Virus record (IMG/VR): IMGVR_UViG_3300046000_003290
Coordinates: 1 to 34,235 of that record
DNA length: 34,235 bases
Direction: 5' to 3' (one strand)
Source of the DNA: a virus
The position numbers were made by a program, and so were the translations under genes. Below are positions 3,809 to 29,777 of the stretch, one piece after another; positions within the stretch are counted from its first letter, which is position 1, and the number at the start of each line of letters is the position of its first letter. Below the pieces are notes generated by a model. That model was not told the DNA's origin and did not search any database. It worked only from the letters and a program-made list of their open reading frames with translations.

Positions 3809-5053
3809 CTAATAGCCCGAAATACTGTCCAGCGCGGTGAAATCATCTTCCTCGTAGTCTGACGAGTAGGATACTTTTGCTAATTGGTCAATATATGCCA
3901 GTGCGTCAATCATGTCGTCGTGAGTAAGCGAATCAGGGAACTGAAACAGCTCATCCATGAATTGAGTATTCCAATCTCCACGGTTAAGAGTAACCAAGCC
4001 ATTCTCAAAGCGCCCTTGTAGCGCCCACATGACCCGATCTGTCTTCTTTTTATTCCCGTGTGTTAACTCTTCCACTCTAAAGAACCTTCCGCTCTTCTTC
4101 ATCAGGTCTGTAAGAGGAGACATTACCGCTTGCTTGGCAATACCCCTCTCAATTCCTACAGAAGTTGGCTCGTAATCACGAACAATCTGGAATATCTTGG
4201 TAGCGGTCTCGTCCAAGGTCCATCTTCCGACTATGATATCCTTAATCCACCACCCGTCAGTGCCGACTTTTACCACAGCTATTGCAGTGTTGTCAAGTCT
4301 TTTCGATTTGGTCTTCTTTCCGACCTCTTCAAAGCCTGCTAGGTCGATTGCAACGTGGTATTCGCCTTCAGGTTCTGTCTCCGAGAACTTAATCCAAGTC
4401 TCCTTGAACATCTCGGAGCCTCTAGCTTCGAAAGACGCCATGAACTCCTGTCTAAAGGCATAGGAACTCATGGACTTCTTGGCCTTATCAACCTCTTCCT
4501 TCTCTAGGATAGGGTTGTCATAGCTGGTGTAATGCCACGCCTTATAATCAGCATCTTGGCCTAGCTCTGCTAGCTTGTAGAGTTCATAGAAGTGATTCCT
4601 GCCCATCGGTGTGCCAATAAATAAGGCGCTGCCCTTGAGATCAGCTAGAGCGGGACGTAGGATAAGCTCCCAAACGTCAGGCTTCATGTCGGCGTATTCG
4701 TCCAGAACTAGATACTTGAGGCTTACGCCCCGCATCGTCTCCGGTCTGTCAGCGCCTTTCAGCGAGATCATGATCCCGTTGACCAGCTTGATCTGTAAAT
4801 TGTTAATGTGGGAACTCTCGATAAGCCCTTGGCCTACCTCAAGTAGAGTGTTCCACATAATGTCTCTTGCCTGCCCCTGCGTAGGAGCAACGTAGAATAT
4901 GTTCCCTCGGTCTGCCTGTAGAGCGTTCACCAATAAGAGATAGGCTGCTAGCCTTGACTTGCCTGTACGTCTACCAGCCGCAACAACCTTAAATCTCGTG
5001 GGGTCATTCCATACTTCTTGCTGCCAGGGCAGTAGCGATATATCCAAATCCAT
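3809..5053 (-). CDS. terL: Terminase large subunit (packaging ATPase-nuclease)
   Basis: 414 aa. ATPase domain: Walker A GRRTGKS at 27-33, Walker B YLVLDE at 114-119, coupling motif FIGTPMG at 145-151. Nuclease domain: acidic residues in AIDLAG (D237), IERG (E302) and THDDMIDAL (378-386), the RuvC/RNase H-like metal site. Length is normal for a compact TerL. Its ATG overlaps the lysozyme stop codon (TAATG), showing coupled translation. It drives DNA into the prohead through the portal and cuts the concatemer. The terminal overlap of the contig suits a headful enzyme making permuted ends, though sequence alone does not prove the mode. Confidence 0.97.
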   Translation of the reverse strand: MDLDISLLPWQQEVWNDPTRFKVVAAGRRTGKSRLAAYLLLVNALQADRGNIFYVAPTQGQARDIMWNTLLEVGQGLIESSHINNLQIKLVNGIMISLKGADRPETMRGVSLKYLVLDEYADMKPDVWELILRPALADLKGSALFIGTPMGRNHFYELYKLAELGQDADYKAWHYTSYDNPILEKEEVDKAKKSMSSYAFRQEFMASFEARGSEMFKETWIKFSETEPEGEYHVAIDLAGFEEVGKKTKSKRLDNTAIAVVKVGTDGWWIKDIIVGRWTLDETATKIFQIVRDYEPTSVGIERGIAKQAVMSPLTDLMKKSGRFFRVEELTHGNKKKTDRVMWALQGRFENGLVTLNRGDWNTQFMDELFQFPDSLTHDDMIDALAYIDQLAKVSYSSDYEEDDFTALDSISGY

Positions 5054-5475
5054 TATGGATACTCACCAGTTTCGATCATGTGAGCTACGTCCTTAGCCCT
5101 TTGACCTACCTGATCTGCCCATATGGAGTCAAGGAACTCAACAGAAGACTCACTGTAGTCGCCCAACTCTAAAGCCCTGAGAGCAAACTGGAACTTCTTT
5201 AATCGTGGGAGTCCTACATTGAAGCAGATGTTAATCAGGGCATCTCGCCTAACGGAGTCTAGCTTGCTATAGAACGGGAAGGTCTTGTCCAGCTCTTTAT
5301 CAATCCGCTTAATGTCGTTCTTGAGGAGATATGCTATCTCTTCATCTGATAGACCCATTCCTCCCCTAGAGATGTTCCGACCTACTCCGATAGTCCAGTT
5401 GCCTGTCGTATCTTTGTAGACGAAGTTCCTAGAACCTTCGTGGAGGGTTAGCTGGTCAATCAGAGTCTTGGTCAT
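5053..5475 (-). CDS. Endolysin, T4-type lysozyme (GH24)
   Basis: 140 aa. The catalytic pattern matches T4 lysozyme spacing: E13 in LHEGS, D22 in YKDTTG and T28 in WTIGVGR, equivalent to E11, D20 and T26 of T4. The enzyme would hydrolyse peptidoglycan between N-acetylmuramic acid and N-acetylglucosamine at lysis. No signal peptide or membrane anchor is seen, so release would need a holin; candidates are encoded far away at 30133-30584. It sits between small and large terminase, an unusual place, overlapping the former by 20 bp and the latter by one. Confidence 0.93.
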   Translation of the reverse strand: MTKTLIDQLTLHEGSRNFVYKDTTGNWTIGVGRNISRGGMGLSDEEIAYLLKNDIKRIDKELDKTFPFYSKLDSVRRDALINICFNVGLPRLKKFQFALRALELGDYSESSVEFLDSIWADQVGQRAKDVAHMIETGEYP

Positions 5476-5933: not shown

Positions 5934-5995
5934 ATCCTAGCACCTTTTTTAATGGTCATGACATACTCCTTCAGGGCTTTCTCTACCGGGTGCAT
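5927..5995 (-). CDS. Possible 22-residue microprotein
   Basis: ATG at 5995 follows a GGAG ribosome site at good spacing; the peptide is MHPVEKALKEYVMTIKKGAR plus two residues. It overlaps the end of the lipoprotein gene and the start of the next small frame. An internal ATG at 5960 also has a GGAG upstream. It could be a leader that passes ribosomes to the small terminase. Confidence 0.4.
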   Translation of the reverse strand: MHPVEKALKEYVMTIKKGARIC

Positions 5996-6186
5996 AGAGA
6001 CTCCAGAAGCTCTGGGGTTAACACTACTCCGTCAGGTATCTTGAGTCCTCGGCCAACCGCTCCTGATCCTGTGTAGATACCAGACAGTTCTCCGTTTATG
6101 CAGACGTAATCAGCGCCGTCCAATACCTTCATGGTGTTGGTGCAGCTCGTGAGGGCAATGATAGGTATAATAAGGAGTCTCTTCAT
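5983..6186 (-). CDS. Small phage lipoprotein
   Basis: 67 aa. The N-terminus MKRLLIIPIIALTSC is a lipoprotein signal: positive start, hydrophobic core, lipobox LTSC with Cys15. The mature part is about 52 residues with two more Cys. It would be anchored in a membrane of a Gram-negative host after lipidation. An outer-membrane spanin-like or superinfection-related role is possible, but it is not Pro-rich like Rz1 and no inner-membrane partner overlaps it. It starts in an ATGA overlap with the 19-codon gene upstream and lies close to the endolysin. Confidence 0.75.
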   Translation of the reverse strand: MKRLLIIPIIALTSCTNTMKVLDGADYVCINGELSGIYTGSGAVGRGLKIPDGVVLTPELLESLCTR

Positions 6187-6244: not shown

Positions 6245-6526
6245 TTAGCTCCACTTAACCTTGTCTGCCCAAAATGCCGCAGACATCTTGCCTTTGGCTA
6301 TGTTATCGCCATGCCTTGCTTTGAATGAGGCTCGTCGAGCCATGTCAGCCCTAGACTCACCCTCTCTCTTGGGAGAGCCTGATACGCCCTGCTGCCCAAA
6401 TCTGATTGTCTTAATCTGGTCACCGACCTTAGCCACAACCACATGAGATTTCGTGGGATGGTCAGGTGTTCTTTTGGGCTTATTGAACCCTTCCACTCCA
6501 GCTCTTTCAATTCTAGGGTCTTTCAT
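6245..6526 (-). CDS. Conserved phage protein, virion/packaging-associated context
   Basis: 93 aa, very basic, with the blocks RAGVEGFNKPKRTPDHPTKSH, IRFGQQGV and SFKARHGDNIAKGKMSAAFW. I recognise this as a family common in short-tailed and other aquatic phages, generally encoded near the terminase genes. No biochemical role is known to me. Basic charge and conserved His/Trp/Lys pattern could fit nucleic-acid binding, which is inference. It starts directly at the end of the metalloprotease gene and precedes the 19-codon gene. Confidence 0.8.
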   Translation of the reverse strand: MKDPRIERAGVEGFNKPKRTPDHPTKSHVVVAKVGDQIKTIRFGQQGVSGSPKREGESRADMARRASFKARHGDNIAKGKMSAAFWADKVKWS

Positions 6527-6529
6527 ATT

Positions 6530-7288
6530 CTATTCGCCTAATATCCAGTGCTCGTTAGCGTATCTCAGCCAGCCCGAGTAAACTCCATCTGGCGATCTTA
6601 CATCATCGAAGTACGCATCCATCCCCTTTGTATGGGTCGTAGCGCAGGTCGGTCTGTCTTGGTAGCTCTCCAGCGTCCATATCTCACCCTTACGCTTAAG
6701 CAGGGCCATTAGATCAGGAACATACAAAGAGCCGTTTCTCATAAGCTCAACGTGACAGGTGTTTGACCCGTATCCCGCTAGAGTTATATCGTAAGCAGTC
6801 AGGGCATAGCGGCAATGAGTCAGGGTTGAGTGCATCACGTCAAACCTGTTCTCGGAATGCCCTTTAATGCCTATCGCATGACCTAGTTCGTGGTTGATGA
6901 TGGTCTGAGCGCAATCACTTAGCCCGCCAAGGAAGGACTCATCACGAAGCATAATCTCAGCGCCAGCGATCTTTCCATTACTGTACGTCCAAGTTCTGGT
7001 TACAGCCGCAGCGTTGTAGTTCTCTGAAATCTCGTACAGTTCCTGACGGGTTACCCATGTTACTGTGATCTTGCCGCTGGTCGAGAATCCATCGCTATTA
7101 GTCAGCCCTGCGTGTGTGATCTTCTTGCCTGTTCTTTGTGACCAAGACCAGATGCCATACTCTAGGGCTTTGCGTAGTTCTTCCGTGGTTAGAGGGCCAG
7201 GCTTATCGGTCTGCTCAACCTGCACATCTTGATACCAGTAAGACCGAGGAACCTCAAGATAGGAGTAGTAGGCAATCGTATCACTCAT
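6530..7288 (-). CDS. Metzincin-type zinc metalloprotease (matrixin-like)
   Basis: 252 aa. Residues 133-144 read HELGHAIGIKGH, the full HExxHxxGxxH zinc site of metzincins: three His ligands and catalytic Glu134. A Met follows at 152 (DVMHST), placed like the Met-turn. The strand before the site (GAEIMLRDE, 109-117) matches the edge strand of matrixins. No signal peptide or pro-domain cysteine switch is obvious, though Cys126 lies just before the zinc site and Cys159 after. The last 75 residues have no match I know. It may cleave host surface or capsid proteins, or act at entry or release; its place near terminase and lysozyme gives only context. The start overlaps the upstream small gene by eight bases. 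Confidence 0.85.
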   Translation of the reverse strand: MSDTIAYYSYLEVPRSYWYQDVQVEQTDKPGPLTTEELRKALEYGIWSWSQRTGKKITHAGLTNSDGFSTSGKITVTWVTRQELYEISENYNAAAVTRTWTYSNGKIAGAEIMLRDESFLGGLSDCAQTIINHELGHAIGIKGHSENRFDVMHSTLTHCRYALTAYDITLAGYGSNTCHVELMRNGSLYVPDLMALLKRKGEIWTLESYQDRPTCATTHTKGMDAYFDDVRSPDGVYSGWLRYANEHWILGE

Positions 7289-7421
7289 CTTGCTCCGACT
7301 CTTGGATGCCGTGTCTTTTATGCTTGTGGGTTCTATTTGACTTGCAGTATGGGCATAAGCCGCTATTACGGCATTCCCTTGACACAGACTTAGTAAAAGA
7401 CTTTCGAACAGTCCTTGCCAT
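7281..7421 (-). CDS. Small zinc-finger-like protein
   Basis: 46 aa. ATG 7421 overlaps the upstream stop codon (TAATG). The sequence has Cys17, then CPYC, then HKHKRH, a possible Cys/His zinc site within a highly basic peptide. The double overlap with both neighbours and lack of any other gene in this stretch favour it as real. Function unknown; nucleic-acid binding would fit. Confidence 0.6.
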   Translation of the reverse strand: MARTVRKSFTKSVSRECRNSGLCPYCKSNRTHKHKRHGIQESEQDE

Positions 7422-7798
7422 TACTTAAAGATACCCGTAATAGATTGGTATGCCCGAACTCCCATGTACATAGCGCCTCTTTGAGAGACCCTTACTCCTA
7501 GACACTGCATGGCCTCAAGGAATACCTGATCGGCCTGCTTCTGGGTTATTCCGAATGAGTCTTTGTATTCACAAAGCATATCGTGGATGACGGCTGCTTG
7601 GATATGTAATCCATTAACCTGCACCATTGACTGAAGGAACCAAGGGATTGAAGCGAAGTCTGTCTCAAAGCCTTCAGGGACTACAAGCTCCCTACCTAGT
7701 ATCTCTGAGTAGAAGATAAACGGCTTGCTGACATGGAACCTCTTGGCTCCAATAGGTCTCTTGGTGTAAAGGGCTTCACTAACGAATCTTGCTGCCAT
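7421..7798 (-). CDS. DUF1353 family protein
   Basis: 125 aa from ATG 7798, which has an AGAGGG ribosome site; upstream in-frame codons lack one. The core VPEGFETDFASIPWF, followed by AAVIHDMLCE and QADQVFLEAMQCLGV, is the signature of DUF1353, a family widespread in tailed phages, often near tail or lysis genes. The conserved Asp/Ser/His pattern suggests an enzyme fold, but no activity is established. This is the first gene of the leftward unit, about 150 bp downstream of its promoter. Confidence 0.85.
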   Translation of the reverse strand: MAARFVSEALYTKRPIGAKRFHVSKPFIFYSEILGRELVVPEGFETDFASIPWFLQSMVQVNGLHIQAAVIHDMLCEYKDSFGITQKQADQVFLEAMQCLGVRVSQRGAMYMGVRAYQSITGIFK

Positions 7799-7925
7799 GC
7801 TAAACCCTCTTTGATTGGTTCTCCCCCTGCCGTGGGAGTCACAGACCAGACTTACCAACCTAACTAAGTCAATCAATCATTCTGTGCTGCTTGCAGTTAC
7901 TGAGCTGGCGAAGTAATCTGCGGTG

Positions 7926-7951: not shown

Positions 7952-7980
7952 ATTGTACTAAAAGCCTGAAAACCTGTCAA
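7952..7980 (-). promoter_or_regulatory. Sigma-70 type promoter for the leftward unit
   Basis: On the minus strand: TTGACA (7980-7975, perfect -35), 17 bp spacer, TACAAT (7957-7952, five of six -10 bases). Transcription would start near 7945 and enter the DUF1353 gene at 7798. No other promoter this good was found in the leftward unit, whose genes are nearly contiguous, so it may drive a transcript of about 20 kb around the circle. Confidence 0.8.
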
Positions 7981-10013: not shown

Positions 10014-10468
10014 CCGACTCAGAAGTTCAGGACTGGTTTGACGAACACGAATCACCGCAGAGCATGCAAAGCAACTTTATGTATATACGTTCGGAGGATG
10101 TCCGCCTATTGATTAGTAAAATCAGGGAACAATTGAGCGCCACGGCGCAGGAGGGGGAGGCTCCAGCGTTGGACATTGAAGAGTTTATTGCCGCGAAGAA
10201 ATACTACACCACGATAGCGAATCCCGAGGAAATGGATGGCACGGAAAGCGTCTCAGTTGCGGAACTGCGCGAATTTATGCACAGGCGGGTGGCAACAGCC
10301 AGCCCACAGGCGGCATATCCCATCGCAGCAGTAACCGGCTATCACAGCGGACACTGCGTAGTCGAGCCTACAGACCGGGCGCAATTGCTGCCTGTCGGCA
10401 TGGCGCTGTATAACTTAGCCAAGGCAATAGAACTTATAAGCGCCGCGACGCGGGAGAACAAATTATGA
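10010..10468 (+). CDS. Unknown accessory protein with ATAQEGE segment
   Basis: 152 aa. Residues near 45 (ATAQEGEAPALDIEEF) share an exact 20 bp DNA segment with the end of the next gene. The N-terminal third is acidic; the C-terminal end is a helix LYNLAKAIELISAATRE. No domain recognised. ATGA overlaps on both sides show it belongs to the compact early unit. Codon use is more GC-rich than in the first early genes. Confidence 0.6.
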   Translation: MTDSEVQDWFDEHESPQSMQSNFMYIRSEDVRLLISKIREQLSATAQEGEAPALDIEEFIAAKKYYTTIANPEEMDGTESVSVAELREFMHRRVATASPQAAYPIAAVTGYHSGHCVVEPTDRAQLLPVGMALYNLAKAIELISAATRENKL

Positions 10469-11046
10469 TAAAAATTAGCCTGAATGAAATACGCGAAAAA
10501 TCACCGTGCGAAAGCGGCTGGAAAAAAGTGCTTGCGTCGAAAGGTGGCAAGAGCGCCGACATGGACGCACAGTTTCCCATGACGGACATCCTCGAAAGCA
10601 ATGATCTGGATGACGCTCTGTGGTGCTTGCGCTGCCGCCCTGAATACTCAAATCTTTGGCGCAAATACGCTGTCTGGTGCGCGAGGCAGGTCCAGCACTT
10701 GATGACTGACAATCGCAGCATTGCCGCGCTAGACGTGGCGTGGCGGCACGCAGATGATCTGGCGACAGATGCGGAGTTGGCCGCTGCTTGGGGCGCTGCT
10801 GGGTACGCTGCTAGGGGCGCTGCTGGGTACGCTGCTTGGTACGCTGCGGTGTGCGCTGCTGGGGACGCTTCTAGGGGCGCTGCTGGGTACGCTGGGTACG
10901 CTGCTTGGGACGCTTCCAGGGGTGCTGGGGCCGCTGCTTGGGCCGCTTCTAGGGACGCTGCTAGGGCCGCACAGAAAGCCAAGCTAATCCAAATTTTGAC
11001 AGCCGGGCAGTGGGTAGATGCCACGGCGCAGGAGGGGGAAGGATGA
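10465..11046 (+). CDS. Alanine-rich tetrapeptide-repeat protein
   Basis: 193 aa. The N-terminal 105 residues (opening MIKISLNEIREKSPCESGW, then LESNDLDDALWCLRC) resemble a phage family of unknown function. Residues about 107-169 are a run of Ala-Ala-x-x units where x is mostly Gly, Trp, Tyr, Arg or Asp (AAGY, AARG, AAWY). Such repeats are usually variable in copy number and may form long Ala-packed helices. The C-terminus QEGEG also carries the next gene's ribosome site. Function unknown; alternative calls (immunity or membrane protein) lack support. Confidence 0.75.
   Translation: MIKISLNEIREKSPCESGWKKVLASKGGKSADMDAQFPMTDILESNDLDDALWCLRCRPEYSNLWRKYAVWCARQVQHLMTDNRSIAALDVAWRHADDLATDAELAAAWGAAGYAARGAAGYAAWYAAVCAAGDASRGAAGYAGYAAWDASRGAGAAAWAASRDAARAAQKAKLIQILTAGQWVDATAQEGEG
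10782..10971 (+). repeat. 12 bp tandem repeat tract (GCTGCT-x6)
   Basis: About 16 imperfect 12 bp units, GCT-GCT followed by two variable codons, encode the Ala-Ala-x-x repeats of the surrounding gene. Units GCTGCTGGGTAC and GCTGCTAGGGGC recur exactly. One unit is short by a codon (GCTGGGTAC), consistent with slippage in multiples of three. Confidence 0.85.
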
Positions 11047-27294: not shown

Positions 27295-27942
27295 CTATAC
27301 GACTACAAAGGCTGTTTCAGTTGGGAAGTAGTTGGCATCAATCGCAATATAATCAGATAGAACTCTATCGGCGTGAATCATTTGCTCTTGCGCTGATTGA
27401 CCTCCGCTCTCTCCGCGCTCCCTAAGAGCCATTGCGTAGGCCAGTTGAAGCACTGGATTATACGGAAGCAGCAGCTCTGTTGAGTCAGCGGTTAAGTCAT
27501 CTTGGTGAACAACTGCGTCAACACGAATGTTATAGACCGCATCCGGTTGCGGATACAGCTTGATTCTCAAGTCTCCGCTGCTATCGAGACCCGCCATCGT
27601 AAAGTGTGTGGGTGAGTTACTAAGAACCTGGCCCATGTAGTAGGCGCGATTAAAGAAGTCTGCGTCCCTAAAGGTGATAAAGTTATTCCCGCTATCATTA
27701 ACAATGGCTTGGATAATGGGGTGAGTCCCGCCACCAGTAATAGAGTAAACGCTAGTTCCTGATACCGTAGAAAAGGCAATTGTGGTTCTTAGTGCTGACC
27801 AAGAGTGCGAGTTTTCAATCTGAGACTTTGCATCATTAACCAAAGCACCAACAAGTGTGGAGTATTCGTTAGCGTCAGCGGTAGTGACTTGGGTTTCTCG
27901 GAGTCTTTTCAGAACACCATTGATAAGCTGCAAATATGTCAT
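27295..27942 (-). CDS. Head-tail adaptor / tail tubular A-type protein
   Basis: 215 aa. MTYLQLINGVLKRLRETQVT followed by LVGALVNDAKSQIENSHSW is a characteristic opening of adaptor proteins (T7 gp11 / P22 gp4-like) in short-tailed phages. It would attach beneath the portal and receive the nozzle. ATG 27942 overlaps the collagen-like gene stop by ATGA, and it is followed by the nozzle gene, the standard order. Confidence 0.78.
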   Translation of the reverse strand: MTYLQLINGVLKRLRETQVTTADANEYSTLVGALVNDAKSQIENSHSWSALRTTIAFSTVSGTSVYSITGGGTHPIIQAIVNDSGNNFITFRDADFFNRAYYMGQVLSNSPTHFTMAGLDSSGDLRIKLYPQPDAVYNIRVDAVVHQDDLTADSTELLLPYNPVLQLAYAMALRERGESGGQSAQEQMIHADRVLSDYIAIDANYFPTETAFVVV

Positions 27943-29777
27943 GCTCTTGTCCTCATTACCATGTCAAAAAGACCCTTAGTCGAAGCCTCCGACTTAAATA
28001 GCTCGGGCTTGAATAGTTGTGACGCAATAGGCGTAGCATTTACAAGGCTTGTAATCAATCCAGTCCTTCCAGCAGCACCCGTAGCTCCTGTAGCCCCTGT
28101 AGCTCCTGTAGCCCCTGTGGCACCGTTGATGCCATTGATGCCGTTAAGACCATTGGTTCCGGCAGCTCCTGTAGCCCCTGTAGCACCAGCCTGCCCGTCA
28201 CGTCCGTCACGCCCGTCACGTCCAGCAGCACCTATCTGACCCATTAGTCCCTGCTCGCCTCTTTCTCCAGCTTGGCCTTGGACTCCTTGTGATCCAGTAT
28301 TGCCAGTAGCACCAGTAGCTCCAGCAGGGCCAGCAGCACCAGCAGGGCCAATAGCGCCAGTGGAGCCAGTAGCACCAGTAGCACCAGCAGCCCCGTCTTT
28401 GCCATTGATGCCAGCAGCCCCGTCCTTTCCGTTAATTCCCGCAGCCCCGTCTTTGCCATTGACGCCATCCTTCCCTGCTGGGCCTTGAAGAGTGGAATTT
28501 ACATAGTCGGATATCTGAGCTTTTACATCCACAAGACTTACGTTTGCTTCCTTTGCAACATCTTCCGCACTCTTTCCAGTCCTGTTCATTTCAGCCAGAA
28601 CGCCTTCAACTCCAGCCGCTCCAAAGATTCCGTTCCAGTCAGCACTCGGCGTAACAGAAGTATTTGTTCCATAGTTACCAAGGCTGTAGTTCTCGCCCTC
28701 GTTGTAAGTAACTCCTTCTGGGGCTGGCTTTACTTCTCCAGTAAACACGTGGGTAAACTGACCATTAGAATACTTCCAGGGGTGCTCTGCTGTTATTGGG
28801 TCAACCGAAGGGGTCGTGGTTGATGTAGAGCCTGCATCAGTTCCACCATCAGTTGGCGACCCAGTTGGCGACCCAGTTGACGGCCCAGTTGTGGAGCCGC
28901 TATCAGTAACAACATCAGTTGTGGAGCCTGAAGTAGTTGCCTGGCCTCCACTAGAGACATCAGGCATTGGCACGCTAACCATAGGAACGGTAGCCTTTGT
29001 TGGCTCTCCGTCACGGCCAATAGTCCAATAGCCTTCTGTAGCTACATCCCTTATGAATCCTTGAGAATCTTTAACATAACCTTCAGGCAAGTCTCCGGGG
29101 ACAGAGGTTATGCCAAACTCATTCTTTAGTTGAGTTCTGAGGTCTGTGGTATCTAGGCCAATCTTGTCGGCATCTGCAATCATGCCCATGAGCCTTGCGT
29201 CCTGGCCTTCTGTTCCCTGAGTAGCTAGCTGCTGATCTTGGAATATCTTGTATGCTTCTTCTACCTGCTGCTCTGGGGTTAGGTTAACTGCTTCTGGACC
29301 GCCGCCTTTGAAGAAGCCAAACTGGTCGAGGAATGCCTTAAACAATGTTCCTGCTGGGCCACCAATGACACTGATTAGAGTATTGAGTGCTGCGTTCTTT
29401 CGCTCAGATGCGCTATCTGCTGCTGCAAAGTTAATTATCCCGCTTGCTATTCCCGGAACTACTCTTTCGCCCATAGTAGCAGTGAGGACTTCTGGATTAG
29501 CAAAGCTCTGCCCAATGGTATTAACCGTTGTCGCCAACAAAGGATTACCCATAGAGCTTTCGTCAGACGTTAGGGGATTAGACAGAGGATTCTGCTCAAT
29601 GGCTGCGTTGTATCTGCTAATGCCCTCGTTAGGATCGATTCCAAGGGCTAAAGACAGCTCTAAAGGGTTGACCCCTGCCTGCTGCATTGCCATTGCCATA
29701 TCAGCGTCTGTAGCGTTAGGATTGGCCGCAGACCACTGTGCGAATGCTTGTGCTAATTGATCTTGAGGAATAGCCAT
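27939..29777 (-). CDS. Collagen-like virion protein
   Basis: 612 aa. Residues 1-180 are helical and Asn/Ala-rich (opening AIPQDQLAQAFAQWSAANPN). A Ser/Thr/Gly linker near 265-320 has short DPVGDPV-type codon repeats. Residues 432-575 are 48 uninterrupted Gly-X-Y triplets (GKD, GIN, GAT, GRD common), followed by a 37-residue C-terminal tail. Phage collagen-like domains form trimeric rods, often in tail fibres or surface proteins. Pro is scarce, so stability would rely on charge and Thr. Position between small virion genes and the tail adaptor suggests a virion component; receptor contact or particle decoration is inference. Confidence 0.8.
   Translation of the reverse strand: MAIPQDQLAQAFAQWSAANPNATDADMAMAMQQAGVNPLELSLALGIDPNEGISRYNAAIEQNPLSNPLTSDESSMGNPLLATTVNTIGQSFANPEVLTATMGERVVPGIASGIINFAAADSASERKNAALNTLISVIGGPAGTLFKAFLDQFGFFKGGGPEAVNLTPEQQVEEAYKIFQDQQLATQGTEGQDARLMGMIADADKIGLDTTDLRTQLKNEFGITSVPGDLPEGYVKDSQGFIRDVATEGYWTIGRDGEPTKATVPMVSVPMPDVSSGGQATTSGSTTDVVTDSGSTTGPSTGSPTGSPTDGGTDAGSTSTTTPSVDPITAEHPWKYSNGQFTHVFTGEVKPAPEGVTYNEGENYSLGNYGTNTSVTPSADWNGIFGAAGVEGVLAEMNRTGKSAEDVAKEANVSLVDVKAQISDYVNSTLQGPAGKDGVNGKDGAAGINGKDGAAGINGKDGAAGATGATGSTGAIGPAGAAGPAGATGATGNTGSQGVQGQAGERGEQGLMGQIGAAGRDGRDGRDGQAGATGATGAAGTNGLNGINGINGATGATGATGATGATGAAGRTGLITSLVNATPIASQLFKPELFKSEASTKGLFDMVMRTRA
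28053..28484 (-). repeat. Gly-X-Y repeat tract, 9 bp period
   Basis: 48 consecutive Gly-X-Y triplets, encoded by 9 bp units. Near-identical units occur at 28081-28118 (Gly-Ala-Thr) and 28394-28455 (Gly-Lys-Asp / Gly-Ile-Asn alternations), likely copied by slippage. The opposite strand shows a Pro-rich open frame only because of this composition. Confidence 0.9.

Follow-up and report, generated by a model that had tools for sequence, protein, structure and literature searches.

A predicted matrixin-like metalloprotease encoded in the late operon of a small phage

To our knowledge, phage metalloproteases with the fold of matrix metalloproteases (MMPs) are rarely reported, and known matrixins have their site of action outside the cytoplasm. 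Matrixin-like proteases have been described from bacteria, from insect viruses and from a few phages, and phage-linked metzincins are already known from Listeria (Mtz) and from Lactobacillus phage 3-521. Mtz, which is phage-derived, cuts a lipoprotein encoded beside it and makes cells more sensitive to phage lysins (PMC8235301). Our literature search yielded no publication on a phage-encoded matrixin besides this Listeria study. The Zn-dependent protease of phage 3-521 (QBJ03557.1) is encoded in a large herellevirus genome, far from the structural genes in the stretch shown. In this study, we analysed a matrixin-like metalloprotease (MP) encoded in a 34,235-nucleotide viral sequence (IMG/VR record IMGVR_UViG_3300046000_003290, positions 1 to 34,235), the whole of which is called the window. 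Like the 3-521 protease, MP is phage-encoded and matrixin-like; in contrast, the 3-521 protein has an N-terminal signal and the canonical motif HELGHVLGLGH, and lacks the C-terminal domain of MP. MP shares with Mtz and its TIMP-like partner lipoprotein Tim the link to a phage and a small lipoprotein encoded nearby, whereas Mtz is secreted (Sec/SPI) with an HExxHxxGxxH/D motif (PMC8235301) and MP carries no signal.

The MP ORF is intact and encodes 252 amino acids on the minus strand, from an ATG start at 7288 to 6530. The ATG is directly preceded by an SD-like GGAG, a good ribosome-binding site. An earlier note on this DNA had located the gene correctly at 6530-7288, and both of the elements that it had read from the translation are present: the putative zinc-binding and catalytic motif HELGHAIGIKGH at residues 133-144 (6857..6892, minus strand) and a Met-turn Met at residue 152 (DVMHST; 6833..6835, minus strand). 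Its description of the matrixin signature as complete was too generous, since the motif is strictly HExxHxxGxxGH, with the third His at +12 instead of the +11 of the canonical HExxHxxGxxH. A six-frame translation of the window contained a single occurrence of the motif type HExxHxxG..(G)H, compared with 0.005 per mononucleotide shuffle; because of this difference, and because full-length homologs keep the motif, it is more than a chance occurrence. Across 21 relatives the motif showed little or no variation, and the DVM at residues 150-152 was invariant in the phage homologs and present in at least 90% of the 21 relatives. The His and Glu residues, whose absence from relatives had been named as a refutation of the assignment, are retained.

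The structure prediction also points to a metzincin, as had been proposed. The AlphaFold model of MP (mean pLDDT 74, pTM 0.75) contains a matrixin catalytic domain at about residues 12-177 (annotated as residues 13-177; 6758..7252, minus strand), which matched karilysin of Tannerella forsythia in the VIA comparison with Z 15.2 and an rmsd of 2.9 A over 154 aligned residues. The best Foldseek matches were karilysin and MMPs (E 7e-7), and the viral structural matches included uncultured Caudovirales proteins, Lactobacillus phage 3-521 and insect-virus MMPs. A profile of the 21 relatives matched karilysin and MMP-1 with E of about 1e-13 and placed the third His of MP opposite their canonical His, across a one-residue insertion. 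Pfam Peptidase_M10 (PF00413) scored 21 bits on MP (E 3.3e-4), under its gathering cut-off of 24 bits. MP combines HExxHxxG and a third His with a Met-turn Met and the matching fold in the comparison of the AlphaFold model with the PDB, which are the characters of metzincin clan MA(M); the exact HExxHxxGxxH spacing of the matrixins (MEROPS M10A) is not found in it. Compared with the catalytic domains of karilysin and MMPs (M10A, PF00413), MP shares the fold, HExxHxxG, the third His and the Met-turn, and differs in the position of that His one residue later, in the absence of a prodomain and a signal, and in the extra C-terminal domain. No cysteine switch is present, as the catalytic domain starts near residue 13 and no Cys precedes residue 126. 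Unlike MMPs, MP also has no His in the region of their structural zinc (S-loop; between residues 60 and 132). Taken together, the sequence and the model make it very probable that MP has a matrixin-type fold and metal site, in which His133, His137 and His144 are the predicted metal ligands and Glu134 the predicted general base.

The later position of the third His was frequent in the bacterial relatives that we found, most of which had it. Secreted matrixin-like HE[IL]GHAIGxxGHS proteins from MAGs of Melainabacteria, Gastranaerophilales and Gemmatimonadota share with MP this +1 spacing and the catalytic domain, but show only 16-25% overall identity, lack the C-terminal domain and mostly have signal peptides. 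No hit came from 369 bacterial genomes belonging to a single class, which were searched without a positive control. Microcystis phage MaAM05 was rejected as a further phage example: a similar domain is present in a protein named ycf3 (MW495066.1, 65037-66317), but this lies beside rpoD and rny, and the record may be bacterial DNA.

Our analysis revealed full-length homologs of MP in three other IMG/VR contigs (3300008266_000199, 3300008450_000149 and 3300020045_001972). They were detected with a degenerate DNA pattern of the zinc motif, which hit 16 of 2.9 million viral contigs, three of them with the MP family. An alignment-based scan returned the identical three contigs at full length and none further, and a scan with a pattern of the C-terminal domain returned only those three again. 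No match was obtained by tblastn of the MP protein against phages and plasmids or by a PHROGs search, and a pattern scan built from the single MP sequence gave no relatives. The homologs are about 37-39% identical to MP overall (44% and 31% in the catalytic and C-terminal domains, respectively), and HExxHxxGxxGH, the Met-turn Met and four Cys are invariant among them. Between one pair of homologs, dN was 0.12 and dS 0.99 (dN/dS of about 0.12), a sign of purifying selection on these sequences.

The homologs differ from MP in their N-termini and genomic position. Those that could be read from the start have a charged stretch and a long hydrophobic stretch followed by ...MPRAEA|SE..., which on visual inspection we interpreted as a signal peptide or anchor, and MP begins at the position that matches the start of their mature part. 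The pattern of a signal in the homologs together with the conserved Cys fits an enzyme that works outside the cytoplasm. For MP itself the earlier reading of no signal peptide was borne out: no in-frame start codon was found upstream of the ATG, and no 15-residue window in the whole protein had a mean Kyte-Doolittle hydropathy above 0.7. A hidden signal peptide 5' of the ATG was considered and rejected, since that in-frame region offers no start codon and is overlapped by a 46-aa ORF with homologs of its own. The homologs' phage shares with the window phage a 93-aa protein (88% identity), a 542-aa protein (65%), an ERF-like protein (60%) and the lysozyme (40%); its head module is different. 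There the homologous gene is encoded on the opposite strand, flanked by the lysis genes and by a gene for a 909-aa putative tail fibre. In locus L167, it adjoins a cassette of lysozyme, p82 and DUF1353 and is oriented against the late genes.

The 75-aa C-terminal domain of MP recurs, conserved, in its phage homologs. It comprises residues 178-252 (6533..6757, minus strand), with invariant C178 and C215, and is predicted with low confidence (pLDDT 65) as a small all-beta domain. It had no Pfam match, and for the low-confidence model the PDB gave no fold match, either at E <= 0.001 or below E 0.1, so that its earlier description as being of unknown type stands. This domain is phage-family-specific.

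The gene context supports the view that MP is phage-encoded. The two ends of the window share 241 bases, with a single mismatch, which indicates that this small phage genome, of about 34 kb, is near-complete and either circularly permuted or assembled as a circle. The late operon is transcribed from the minus strand and is preceded by a sigma-70-like promoter (7952..7980, minus strand; 11/12, by consensus match only). Its first gene encodes a DUF1353 protein (phrog_1158; 7421..7876, minus strand), followed by the 46-aa CxxC/His-rich ORF (7281..7421, minus strand), MP, a 93-aa phrog_7595 protein (6245..6526, minus strand) and a 67-aa predicted lipoprotein with the lipobox LTSC (5983..6186, minus strand). 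Next in order come a probable small terminase, assigned by position and size without a family match, the phage lysozyme or endolysin (5053..5475, minus strand; PF00959, E 4.5e-14), the large terminase, HNH, the portal and, on crossing the window ends, the capsid protein; a holin-like TM protein is also encoded in the genome. Since the 46-aa ORF overlaps both the DUF1353 stop and the MP start, it is probably translated in one chain with MP. Homologs of this ORF are present in Podoviridae sp. ctQWt234 (MW202801) and, unannotated, in Aeromonas phage AhSzw-1. The 93-aa protein, the conserved neighbour 3' of MP, is very widespread, being 80-90% conserved among otherwise unrelated aquatic phages at varying genome positions, and weakly matches a minor head/DNA pilot family.

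L083, the closest relative that we found, has about 87% DNA identity to the window phage over the terminase, portal and capsid genes, with a major capsid protein (MCP) 96% identical and a portal 94% identical to those of the window phage, yet it has no MP gene. About 97 bp of DUF1353 remain as a remnant, followed by about 220 bp of unrelated sequence and then the 93-aa gene. This deletion or replacement scar, at 3343-3651 of L083, takes the place of DUF1353, the 46-aa ORF and MP in the window. Furthermore, no metzincin motif was found in the loci of 160 relatives, many of them partial, that were fetched via the 93-aa and capsid proteins. The absence from L083 indicates that MP is accessory and dispensable for building such a capsid. 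This contradicts the suggestion in the earlier note that MP replaces the prohead protease. The place of the gene in the late operon near the portal and MCP would suit an enzyme that processes capsid or scaffold; however, besides the nearly identical MCP and portal of a phage that lacks MP, exported homologs would be unable to process a cytoplasmic prohead, and we regard this role as extremely improbable.

Our preferred reading, to which we give an even chance, is that MP is a late-expressed accessory zinc endopeptidase that acts on host envelope proteins around lysis. MP would be active as a zinc endopeptidase, and its working place would be outside the cytoplasm, on host envelope or extracellular proteins. 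In the related phages the homolog would be exported through Sec, while in the window phage the signal-less MP would accumulate in the cytoplasm, as would the endolysin, which also lacks a signal, and gain access to the envelope once the holin has opened the membrane at lysis. Its targets there may be proteins that keep the envelope intact, or proteins that would re-adsorb progeny, and the C-terminal domain may bind the substrate or the cell surface. An envelope role is favoured by the matrixin fold, by the AEA-S-ending hydrophobic segment of the homologs and by the start of MP, with its SD, at the mature part, and a late or lysis context by the lysozyme and holin-like protein in the genome and the L167 homolog beside the lysozyme cassette; the Listeria Mtz provides a functional precedent. 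Against this reading, MP has no signal peptide and its zinc motif is one residue longer; the operon also holds packaging genes, so that position alone is no pointer to lysis, and the L167 gene and the late genes are on opposite strands.

The location beside the small and large terminases and the portal, the missing signal peptide, as expected of a virion protein, and the tail-fibre neighbour of the L167 homolog would suit a protease packaged in the head or tail that acts on the host surface or its proteins during entry. A signal peptide or anchor on the homologs is unexpected for a virion protein, however, and MP is missing from L083 despite almost identical head genes, which leaves this explanation unlikely. 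A cytoplasmic protease that cuts host or phage proteins during infection, for take-over or counter-defence, has a similarly low probability: an accessory ORF without a signal peptide, absent from a close relative, would be in keeping with it, but the four conserved Cys, the exported homologs and the established extracytoplasmic action of known matrixins argue for another place of work, and MP would be made late, after take-over. MP might instead be a decayed, inactive remnant of a secreted protease that has lost its signal and is now neutral. The loss of the signal relative to the homologs and the deletion in L083 agree with decay, whereas the intact ORF, the good ribosome-binding site and the retention of all active-site residues and Cys after divergence to 37-39% identity make it very unlikely.

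The 67-aa lipoprotein encoded in the same operon is a possible partner of MP, and the two invite the idea of a resemblance to the Mtz-Tim pair. By analogy, a signal-less MP held in the cytoplasm could be an envelope-cutting third lysis enzyme, released at lysis and controlled or aided by the lipoprotein, as a Gram-negative counterpart of Mtz-Tim; we consider this rather improbable. Unlike Tim, the window lipoprotein is two genes away from the protease, is much smaller and has no sequence relatives that we could detect; as is MP, it is missing from L083.

What the MP family adds to the known phage-linked metzincins is a phage-specific C-terminal domain, a zinc motif longer than the canonical one and, in an operon for packaging and lysis, a member that lacks a signal. 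Should MP act on the envelope, proteolysis would be a further tool, next to muralytic enzymes and spanins, for lysis or against re-adsorption. We also observed two repetitive proteins elsewhere in the window: a 612-aa late protein with a long collagen-like repeat (GxxGxxG; 27939-29777, minus strand) and a 193-aa ORF with a long repetitive Ala/Gly/Tyr-rich stretch (AAGYAARGAAGYAAWYAA...; 10465-11046, plus strand).
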